Of a DNA stretch of 64,000 nt, positions 47,101-53,100 are shown in pieces (positions within the stretch are counted from its first letter, which is position 1; each line of letters begins with the position of its first letter). Origin of the DNA: Acholoe squamosa (taxonomy: Eukaryota > Annelida > Polychaeta > Phyllodocida > Polynoidae); contig OX439039.1 in the NCBI GenBank assembly GCA_949317995.1, positions 13,755,282 through 13,819,281 on the forward strand, in the 5' to 3' direction. The notes beneath the pieces were generated by a model. It saw only the letters and a program-made list of their open reading frames with translations. It ran no database searches and was not told where the DNA came from. The position numbers and the translations under genes are program-made.

Positions 47101-50100
47101 CACACCACCACATAACGTCAAGCCGTAATGTGACGTCATATCGTGACGTTACACCATAACTTTACGCAATGCCATCACATGACGTCAGACCTGGGCGTCA
47201 TTATCTTCAGTGTAATGCTATTCTACATGCCATGACGTCATACATTTATTTATCCGAGGTATTTATGACTTCACATATGACATCACTTTACGTCATATCA
47301 TCAGATGACGCCGGTCCTGATGTCACAACACCCATTTTCATTATTACCCACATGACAACTTAAAACCCAATCAGATCTCTCAAGCAAAAAGTTGAATAAA
47401 AAGAGTCAAACTGATTACGGTACTTTTTATTTTAAAATGAGTTGAGTCATAGTGATGTGTGATGAGACTGACATGCAGGAACTAGCATCTACCCAGAACC
47501 ACCTTGGGCTAACTTTCATCTGTAAGCACTTTCGGCCATTACCAGATAACTATAAAACTACAACTACTTTGCCATTTAATATGAATATGAAAGTGGGGGA
47601 TTAGAATCAAGAATGTGAGAGAAAAATGTCTAGTCCTATTATAAATTTTAGAGAAAAAAAATGGTAGAAGATTTTATAATCATATACACTAAAAAAATAT
47701 ACTTTGACAATTAAAAGAAGTACGAAATTTAATGAAAAATACAAAAAAAAATGTCCAAAATAGAAAATGTGCATTCTTGAATTGCATGACAAGTATAAAA
47801 AAATGGGGGCAAAAAAAAAAGAAAGTATCGCCCAAGCCAGTTGTCTACAGAAAGCGTCTAACACGGAGACACCAGATGACCTACTACTGGTAATAAAACA
47901 GGATAGAAATAATGATATGGTTGTATGTCATATTTGTTGTAGTATTGTAGGTATACAGATAAGGCACATTGTGAGGGGGTAGGATGATGGCAGTAGTAGC
48001 ACCATGAAGATACCAAGGTACACAGTGGCACCGCACCCAGCTTTTGTATTTTATGCATTTAAATCATTGTGATTTAATTGAGTATATAAAATCCACAGGC
48101 GTTTATATGTGTATATACAGTTTACTGGACAGTGCCACCCTCCAGTGTGTTACCTGGTGGGTGAGTTCCATTACCCCTCACCAGGTAGAGGTGGCGACCA
48201 CCCAGCGTGCCGCTCAGCTTCATTCACAGTTGAATTCAAACTTGTTAACCCCCTATTTTTGACCAAATTTCAGGCACAAAAAAGGCAAAAAAACTACAGT
48301 CAAAAAAAGGAGAATGCATGCCCCATGCCCCCTTCTAAATCGGCCACTGCGTGCGTACGAGCTGCATCTTATTCGCAAGGGTGGCCCTTGCTGCGCATTA
48401 CAATTTGTGTCTCAAAGTCTGGGTGTGCCTTACAGTGGTGGATCCAGGAATTGGAAAAAGGAGGGGGATCGCCTCTCCTATAGGTAAAAGTAGGGGGCAT
48501 ACCCTCTGCTTTTGGCTAAATTTCGAGATTTCACAATTTTGACATCTATAGCAGTGGCCATTTAAGGATCAGAAATATTCTGTTTAAACTTTGAAAACAC
48601 TCATGCTCTCCCATCCCTACCCCCTTTTGAGGGTTGGGATAAAGAACCTGTTCTTTTTCTGGGCTATATCTCTATCCCATCAGCTGGGTGGGAGGCCACT
48701 GTCCTTAGCAGTAAAAGAGAGAGGTTGACAGATAACTTCATTAAGAGACCATAGATTGGGGATTTGGGGAGAAGGGAGGAGGAGAGGGTATGTGCCACAC
48801 TGCCAGACAACATCAACATACTCACCAGTGTGACAAAAAGGTGGTAAAAAATAAAATAAATGGCCACCAGGGGTGCAAACTGTTCTCCGGTCTGCCACAT
48901 AGTCAGGTGCATGACTTCGTTCCACCCTTTCTGGGTGAGGATTTGAAACATCGACATTGTAGCCTGTGGAGAAATAAGAGGTACGTTTCCCACCTAAATA
49001 TTTTGGTTTGGTTAGAGCCGAGCTTGGTGCTACTCCCTTGGGTTGGTATATTAACGCTGTCGGCCTGTCCGTGTGGGTATGTCACGCCGCCCGATACACT
49101 GCAGCATACCGTGCTTACAACTTCTGTCACAACTTGTATGTCCCCAATATCATAATGTCTACATAGGACATAGACATGACCAATATTCTGGCTTAAGAAA
49201 AAAAATGTGTCAAAAATATCTAATTCACAGAACCAATTGTGAGGTTTGTTTTGCCTACAGAGTAGCCTCTGAGTCCTAGACAGATGCCTCTTTTGTGATT
49301 GAAGGCTTTACGAATTCTTTTTGATATTTTTGTTCTCATGGTGATCAGCAATTACAAGTTGTGACAAATGTTATTCACAATATTCAGTTTCTCGCCCGAG
49401 AACACAAGACCAAAATGCAGAGCGCGGAGTGTCCTGTCGCAAATGCATGGAGAAATTGACACATATTGGACACTACAGGGAAAATCATAAATAAATACAA
49501 GTGACAAAAGACTGGACAATGAATGATATGGTGCACGACAGCAAAAGACCTATATGGGAAGAGAACATCAAGACATTATAATGAGATACGCTTAAAACAT
49601 GGGGCAAGTAGACATAAACAATGGGGTCACAGCGGTAAAGCTCATGGGACGCTAACCTAGACTGAAATGTCTTATAATTCTGTTGATCATTTTCTTATCA
49701 CTCTTTCTTCCATCTGAGGCATATTTTGTATTTATGGTAGTAACTAAAAAATGGTTGAAAAAATGTTGCGTGCGCTTGAAAATAAGGCGAGAAGATGTTC
49801 AGTCTAAGTCAGGGTGGTACGAGGAAATACCGCCACCTGGACACAGCTGTGAAGGAGAAAAAGCTTCATAAGGTAGAAACAGGACGCAAGGCGGCATTCA
49901 TAGTGGGGCAGGACATAACGACAGAATAGTCATGGGAAAACAGCCCAGAAAATGTTGGAATGACCAGAGAATGAATCCTCTCTGTGTAGGAGAAAATAAA
50001 AGATAATAACATGAGAATACCAACATGCTTTTAAAAGATAAAGGGAGAATTGTGGGGAGAAAATATATCATGTGAAAAAGGTACAACTGTAAGAAAGAGT

Positions 50101-53100
50101 TGGAGACCCTGGTGCATTGTGCATACTCACCCCTATCATAAACATGTGATAAAATAAAAAGAGCGAAGCTACGAAGGGAGTGGTGGCTGCGCCGACGGCA
50201 TCCAGTGTATCATTCATCATGTCCACCCAGCCCTCCTGGGTGAGGATTTGGAACAGACACATAAAGGCCTGACAAGAAAAAGAGGCAACAAAGAAAAACT
50301 CAAACTCAATAGTGAAAGGGTGTGGTGAATTGATAATAGAAAAGAATGAAATAATTTGATAAATCATAGAAACCCATACTTGTGTACTTAAGTATATATA
50401 CATTGTGTTGACAGCTTGGCAAGCCCAGATGTGTTGCCATGGCAACATGCAACAACAGTGAGTGGCTGGATGATGGGGGTTCATCCATCTTACTCGCCTT
50501 ATCGCTATGTACAACTACAAGTAAGAAAACATAGTCTGGGGAAGATTCTGTTTTCTGAACAAATGAAAACATAACTCTATCAAGAGCAGCAAACGGAACA
50601 ACAGCATAATGAACAAAATAGGATTGACAGTGTTTTGACTAAACCCGAGCCAACTTGACAGTCTATCCTTTTTTTATCGGACCAGCTGTGCCATATTCCA
50701 CATTCTGAACTTTTCCTATGATTGGCATGTCGGGTCTGTTCAAAACACTTCACTGCAGCAAGGGTTTAACTGACTATGAATTGATAAATCTTAATAATAA
50801 AGTCATCTCATAAATGATAAGTGTCTCTTTGATGGCAGTAGGTAGTACATGATGCAGGTGGGGGGGGGGACTACAGGCTCTACACATAGTTAGGTCACCC
50901 AATCTGTCAGTTTTCTGGTCATTCCTATATTCTCAAAGAATAAGAAACAAGACAAAGGAGACATAGACGTCTTATATTGGATTTAGAGCACCATATAGAT
51001 AGAAATAATGACCAAGTGGTGCATAATTGCCTGACTTCAGACTTTTTTTCTCACAGAATAAAGACTACTTCATGTAATGATTAAACAGTGGCAACTAAGG
51101 AGGAAGGTTACAATTTTATAACCCTTTAATGCATAGTACAGTATGTTAATTTGTGGTGATACTTGAATGCAGCCCTGGTCAGTTTGTGTTTTTAATAGTC
51201 AGAGCTACATTCATGCACCATCACCACAAATGGGCATGGAGCTTTAACCCTTTAAATCCCTGTATTCCATATATTCAGTACTTATGTACTGCATATATGC
51301 AACATAGGCGGTTAAAGGGTTTAACACTTTGTCAGCCTAAAAGGGTTACTGTTCTAATTGCAGGGTGTAAGGGGTGTACAGATATGACACACAAAATATA
51401 TCTAGTCTCAAAACTATGAGCTTTGGCTTCATGGTTAGGGTAAAGGCTCCCTATTGTTGGTCTCACTGCACGACAAAGAGAATTCTACTAAGCTTTGGTT
51501 ATCACCCCCCCCCCCATATTTGTATTCTGTTATGCTTTCTCTGTTTTCCCTTGCTTCTATAGGCCACTTGCAGAATATTATTTGAGAAATATGTCCCTGG
51601 TAAGTATTTACTGGCAAATGGTACTAATTTTGATAGCATTTATCCACGAAGTGCTTATCTTGCGAATGCCGACTGAGGCTGTACCTGCTACGGGCCTGGA
51701 AATTTCCAATAGAATTGGGATGGAGACAGTCTTGTCCAGTATGACAATTCATCTTGGTAATATAATTGTAGCTCAGTGCATTGTAGCAGGTGCAACATAA
51801 CATAAACCAGCAGTGCGGTGATGGAGCAAAACCTCTAGTCCTGAAACAGCACACACTCATATTGGTCACCGAGGGGATGGCCGCAGTTAAAACAGATATA
51901 TAAAAAAGTTAATACAAATTTTGGGTCGTCCTAAGACATTATAGCTTCCCTTCAATACATTATTCTCACATAAAAATGAGAGGGAAAATAGTTTTTTAGA
52001 CAGACCTTACTTTTCTTGTTTGTCAGTGGTTGACTAAACGCGGTAATGCTCCATCTGTTGATGTCGTTTAAAGGTCAAAGCAATGAGATCAAGCATCTTT
52101 CATTATCTCACTGAAATCTTGTATTGAAAGGTAGCTTTAGTCTTTAGATCGTCCCAGTGTTCTTGTCTCATTCTCTATAGGAGTACAAGATATTTACCTC
52201 TGCCTCATAGTTACCATATTACCATGGTAACGACCTTGGCTATGTGGTAGATATCAATGATTTAGGGTTAGTGACAATCTCAGTTAGTGGGGCTCTAGGA
52301 TCGCACACATCAGTTATAAGGTCAACATGATTAGGCTACAAAACTAAGTGTGTCACCATGGTGACAAACCTTGGCGTGTCACCATGGTTACACATCTAAG
52401 TGAGCCACCATGGTTATAAACCCAAGTCGGTGTTACCATGGTTACAAACTTCAGTGAGTCACCATGGTTACAGACCTCAGTAAGTCACCATGGTTACTTC
52501 CCTCAGTGAGTCACCACAGTTACAAACGTCAGTGAGTCACATTGGTTACAAACGTCAGTTAGTCACCATGGTTACAAATCTAAGTGAGTCATCGTGGTTA
52601 CACACTTCAATATGTCACCATGGTTTCAAATCTGAGTGAGTCCCCATGAGTAGACATCTCTGTAAGTTACCATTGTTACAAATCTTAGTTATCACCATGG
52701 TTACAAACGTTAGTGTGTCACCAGGCTTACACGGTTATGTCAGTGGGTGACTATTTCTACAAGCTTCAGCAAATGGGTCACCATAACTACGGGCTCCAAA
52801 TACCAATTCTGATATAAGTGCAAAGGCAGCACTTTTATAATGAGTGGGGAAAACAGTTTTTATCTTAATTTCAATTCTATTCACTCGAAAATATACATAT
52901 CATATCCTATCTATAATACTGAATGGGTCAAGTGATCGTATAAACATTAGAAAACCTGCAAGCTTCCAGCTGCGCGCTCAAAACAAAATCTGAAGGTAAG
53001 CGCAACTTATAGAGACCTGGTCATTTGCATTTGTCCTCTTTTGAAAGATATAAGTCTCTACAAAGTAAAAGCATTTCATAATGATGACCAAATAGTCAAA

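Follow-up and report, generated by a model that had tools for sequence, protein, structure and literature searches.

The NALCN gene in the window (the whole stretch of DNA analysed, 64,000 nucleotides) encodes the pore segment of domain II twice, in two tandem exons that differ at the selectivity filter. The upstream exon, 12a (50131..50268, minus strand), carries E at the filter position (TQEGW), and the downstream exon, 12b (48826..48963, minus strand), carries K (TQKGW). Judged from sequence, the choice of cassette is predicted to set the filter ring to EEEE (12a) or EKEE (12b). We consider it very probable that this is the tandem exon 15a/15b arrangement known from other invertebrates, and that most likely one cassette is used at a time, so that a channel has one ring or the other. 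The initial annotation had proposed both the exon pair and its homology to exon 15a/15b, and both proposals are borne out: the two exons are present, open, and bounded by AG/GT sites, and the homology is backed by the E-then-K order, by E in the other three domains, and by the likeness of 12b to the K cassette of Capitella.

The gene (25580..59589, minus strand) has its start codon at 59589 and runs to at least ~25580. Exons were located with a human NALCN sequence as query, and splice junctions were fitted afterwards by frame, AG/GT sites, and alignment score. The alignment to this query covers exons of all four domains, and with splice fitting the model reaches approximately residue 1584 of the human protein, with gaps in parts of the II-III linker, in the domain III turret (~39983 to 39140), and in the C-terminal tail. 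Filter E was read directly in the pore exons of domain I (56333..56475, ASQEGW), domain III (39021..39140, 5' edge approximate, LSLEGW), and domain IV (28734..28827, TGEDW), all on the minus strand, in agreement with the earlier reading of these domains. The splice-fitted model also places the exons that flank the cassettes where that reading had them: exon 11 (53700..53831, minus strand), which encodes S5 of domain II, ends at 53700 with the donor CCAG/GTAATC, and exon 13 (46158..46232, minus strand), which encodes the next part of domain II S6, starts at 46232.

Among 151 proteins, the closest match to the gene is NALCN of Capitella teleta (71% over 995 aligned positions), and the two next-closest NALCN records stand at 70% and 65%; on this ranking, the source of the gene is most likely an annelid. 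For both cassettes, PDB NALCN chains score far above Cav and Nav chains (with phmmer in the case of 12a), and the four-domain channel encoded here is nearer to NALCN than to Cav or Nav. The host assembly comprises 1.48 Gb in 63 contigs, and when it was searched with the cassettes, 12a and 12b each found only themselves and each other at E up to 0.001, which agrees with the usual single NALCN gene per genome. UNC80 is a known partner in the NALCN complex; UNC80 matches above the family cut-off lie on a different contig, and one of the two contains an internal stop.

Each cassette is 138 nucleotides in length, encodes 46 amino acids in phase 0/0, and is supported by its AG/GT sites, by PDB matches, and by the search of its own genome, to which 12b adds its likeness to Capitella. 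The best PDB match of 12a spans NALCN residues 543-586 and that of 12b residues 544-588, such that cassette residue 12 corresponds to residue 554 of PDB NALCN if chain numbering is taken as common. We reproduced the previously noted identity of 21 of 46 residues between the cassettes, which at the nucleotide level are identical at 76 of 138 positions. Within the window, a 12a query finds 12b at E 3.6e-11, which excludes a likeness by chance. No third domain II cassette was found in the 64,000-nucleotide window, or at E up to 0.001 in the 1.48-Gb assembly. If pore exons belonging to other domains are set aside, the strongest further window match to 12a (42802-42894, plus strand) has E 0.009 and contains an internal stop, and 12b has no further window match better than E 0.4.

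The arrangement itself, its E-then-K order, and its occurrence in an annelid (Capitella) are already in print (PMC3557258). Senatore et al. 2013 described NALCN exon 15a/15b in Lymnaea, flatworms, molluscs, annelids including Capitella, echinoderms, and hemichordates (PMC3557258), and reviews also cover dual-filter NALCN (PMC4436565, PMC6259924, PMC10120453). As in exon 15a/15b, the cassettes of the window gene extend from the P-loop to the start of S6 of domain II, with E upstream, K downstream, and E in domains I, III and IV; what differs is the annelid, the exon number in our model, and the divergence of the E copy, which is measured here. Exons 31a/31b of myriapods and chelicerates (EEEE/EEKE) are likewise tandem E and K pore exons (PMC3557258), but they are situated in domain III, which in the window gene has one E exon, with no K copy seen within the window. 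Alternative domain II exons 12a/12b of Cav3 T-type channels are also said to alter sodium versus calcium permeation (PMC4436565, PMC9694082). However, these belong to another gene and affect the turret rather than the filter, and the match in exon number is a coincidence. In the protein set, E or D followed by K occurs within one record in a nemertean, a bivalve, three gastropods, bdelloid rotifers, and two crinoids. No annelid EEEE protein was present among the matches listed from a database clustered at 90% identity; because isoforms could merge there, this absence was given no weight.

The window gene adds one more annelid to a known, physiologically unexplained case in which one gene offers calcium-like or sodium-like filters. 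In Lymnaea, cDNAs contain one exon or the other, and the isoforms differ by tissue (PMC3557258). By analogy with such published homologs, we infer that both cassettes are used, singly, in a manner that differs by tissue. A change of ion preference with the cassette is further predicted; for the published isoforms, the change in selectivity could not be confirmed by in vitro expression (PMC3557258). Moreover, the domain IV glutamate of rat NALCN is not at the high-field-strength layer (PMC7712781), and therefore an EEEE NALCN need not act as a Cav-like ring.

If each transcript links exon 11 to exon 13 through a single cassette, use of 12a would give an EEEE channel and use of 12b an EKEE channel, and the P2 helix and the beginning of S6 would differ between the two products as well. 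The reading frame is kept with either cassette, both, or neither, and the intron between 12a and 12b is 1167 nucleotides long. Because both exons are multiples of three and the intron is of this length, exclusivity is enforced neither by nonsense-mediated decay nor by lack of room, and strict exclusivity would need a regulated choice involving splicing factors or intronic RNA pairing. We also discarded enforcement by U12-type introns or by frame: the exons are multiples of three, and the introns after exon 11, 12a, and 12b start with GTAATC, GTGAGT, and GTGAGT, which by eye, against the consensus, are presumably U2-type. The exon 11 donor, GTAATC, is weak, being among the six lowest of 33 (one of these six is at an unresolved exon end); such a donor would fit a regulated choice, although it proves nothing. 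Among the inverted repeats between exons 11 and 13, one candidate spans 12a (a 24-nucleotide pair, 49948-49971 and 50911-50934, 83% complementary) and may have arisen by chance. Intron 11 also contains, upstream of the cassettes, two tandem arrays (52334-52744 and 53497-53640), one with a 26-nucleotide unit that includes the palindromic CACCATGG and one with a 24-nucleotide unit.

The downstream exon is the better conserved of the two. 12b is identical to the K cassettes of Capitella and of Paralvinella at 43 of 46 residues each. In a tree of 53 cassettes (filter residue masked, 45 columns), it belongs to a clade of four K cassettes that includes Capitella and two further records, with support 100/95. 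The initial annotation had named a dead recent copy as the case against its proposal; since 12b is so close to the Capitella K cassette, it is neither dead nor recent, and it is constrained across phyla. Of the 48 inner branches of the tree, 24 are drawn open and six have good support, and the program cautions that long branches may be drawn together. A single clade for all 25 K rows is not rejected (AU p 0.236, 45 columns), yet it is not recovered, and four rotifer K rows are placed elsewhere. That the duplication is old, as was proposed earlier, is supported by the closeness of 12b to the Capitella K cassette. The low identity of 12a and 12b, which had been read as a sign of age alone, does not carry that weight, since 12a changes fast; the 21 of 46 identical residues reflect this fast change as well as age.

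To place 12a among other dual-filter genes, we used a reference set of 14 cassettes, each from a species whose record shows one E exon only. Of the 14, 13 came from 42 proteins picked by hand from the 151 to span phyla, and the fourteenth is the human sequence; the remaining 109 proteins, many of them near-copies from arthropods, were left out, and the single-E set is still rich in arthropods. Identities are given as medians, all divided by 46. Single-E cassettes are 70% identical to one another (91 pairs) and 67% identical to K cassettes (336 pairs), but only 50% identical to the E or D cassettes of dual-filter lineages (182 pairs). K cassettes are 74% identical among themselves, compared with 43% for the E cassettes of dual-filter genes. 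In 12 of the 12 dual-filter species compared, which are related and therefore not independent trials, the E (or D) cassette is farther than the K cassette from the single-E set. The comparison leaves out a second Adineta record (P0076), the partial Paralvinella cassette, and five E cassettes whose K partner is not in the set. The gap between E and K cassettes is small in the oyster (two residues, in two records), Tegillarca (three) and Anneissia (four), and ranges from 6 to 12.5 residues in the remaining dual-filter species. In the window gene and the crinoids, the gap comes entirely from positions beyond the filter, whereas in the nemertean, gastropods, and rotifers the P1 helix and filter contribute to it too. 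In the two bivalves the order is reversed for P1 and filter, where the E copy lies nearer to the single-E set than the K copy does.

By these comparisons, the exon with the derived K has kept more of the old body, and the exon with the old E has changed more. Because the K exon is conservative and the E exon divergent, the 21 of 46 identical residues are no clock for the duplication. We found no statement of this asymmetry in the literature searched, as far as the available portions of those papers extend, and it may be visible in Figure 4 of PMC3557258; its measurement in 12 dual-filter species is the useful addition made here. Tentatively, and with rather more doubt than confidence, we suggest that in dual-filter NALCN genes the ancestral pore-exon sequence passed to the K exon, leaving the E exon as a free module that changes fast, mostly in P2 and at the start of S6. 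If so, the EEEE isoform would be a distinct pore with its own role in gating, assembly, or calcium sensing, beyond being a selectivity variant. The asymmetry further indicates that more than the filter residue distinguishes the two isoforms, and swap experiments should therefore cover the entire cassette in addition to the one residue.

The divergence of 12a could also be that of a decaying exon on its way out, leaving EKEE as the only working channel, a state reported in the leech Helobdella; published work describes lineages that have lost the E exon (PMC3557258). The tree and the identity comparisons agree in showing 12a as a divergent copy: its branch is long (1.76) and has no supported place among the 53 cassettes, 13 of its 46 residues are absent from all 13 single-E cassettes of equal length (7 of 46 for 12b), and its donor is no better than fair, the eleventh lowest of 33. 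However, 12a is open, and its acceptor is strong (score 11.76, the fourth highest of 33). Its divergence is concentrated in P2 and the start of S6, while its P1 helix and filter share a median of 12 of 14 residues with the single-E cassettes, equal to 12b. Differences between 12a and 12b are also fewest at codon position 2 (14, versus 21 at position 1 and 27 at position 3). Another annelid, Paralvinella, carries a partial upstream cassette immediately before its K cassette. Counted from the filter glycine, 13 of 34 residues of this partial cassette are identical to 12a, and it has a similar HMxMxG end, but the ranking of scores speaks against kinship: several K and single-E cassettes give the Paralvinella tail a higher score than 12a does, and neither tail is among the other's best eight. 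The letter before GW in this Paralvinella record is printed as K, and we did not read it as the upstream filter residue because the N-terminal part looks like a gene-model error. On balance, we regard decay of 12a as unlikely.

Inclusion of both cassettes in some transcripts would give a doubled pore loop that might be non-conducting or dominant negative. Both exons are frame-neutral, and in 11 records (nine plus two from crinoids), a few of which bear the name isoform X2, the two cassettes follow one another directly. Gene predictions commonly fuse tandem exons, and these records may be prediction errors or real joint inclusion. The Lymnaea cDNAs, by contrast, are mutually exclusive (PMC3557258), and joint inclusion in the window gene seems highly improbable to us. 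We give almost no weight to the idea that the pair arose through misassembly, or that it consists of pseudo-exons unrelated to each other. A perfect 227-nucleotide duplication does exist elsewhere in this NALCN gene, but the cassettes differ from each other at 62 of 138 nucleotides and 12b matches Capitella at 43 of 46 residues, which refutes both versions of this idea. Exon 15a/15b-like cassettes that are most likely used one at a time are therefore the reading that we retain.

Other filters in the protein set show further variation. Bdelloid rotifers (P0022, P0032, P0075, P0076) have an upstream cassette with D at the filter position (MNDGW), and their domain II options would, from their sequences, be D and K. 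Directly behind the domain II filter position, many insect records have A (QEAW; P0028, P0045 and others), and the upstream cassette of Lineus has S (QESW; P0003). These run against the statement in a review that, domain IV excepted, animal NALCN always has glycine at this site (PMC10120453).

Two repeats elsewhere in the gene involve splice sites. The perfect 227-nucleotide duplication (56929-57155 and 57202-57428, 273 nucleotides apart) contains the acceptor of exon 5 and the larger part of that exon, which encodes the domain I turret; its upstream copy is truncated and reads into a stop codon. It is either a recent duplication or an assembly artefact. The domain III S3-S4 exon (41809-41642) is preceded by an intron with a tandem array of a 61-nucleotide unit (41812-42633), in which the acceptor and the first codons of this very exon are copied over and over. 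A 22-nucleotide word combining the acceptor and the exon start occurs in 13 exact copies, the last of which is the real site. The array thus presents repeated decoy 3' splice sites, which possibly affect splicing.
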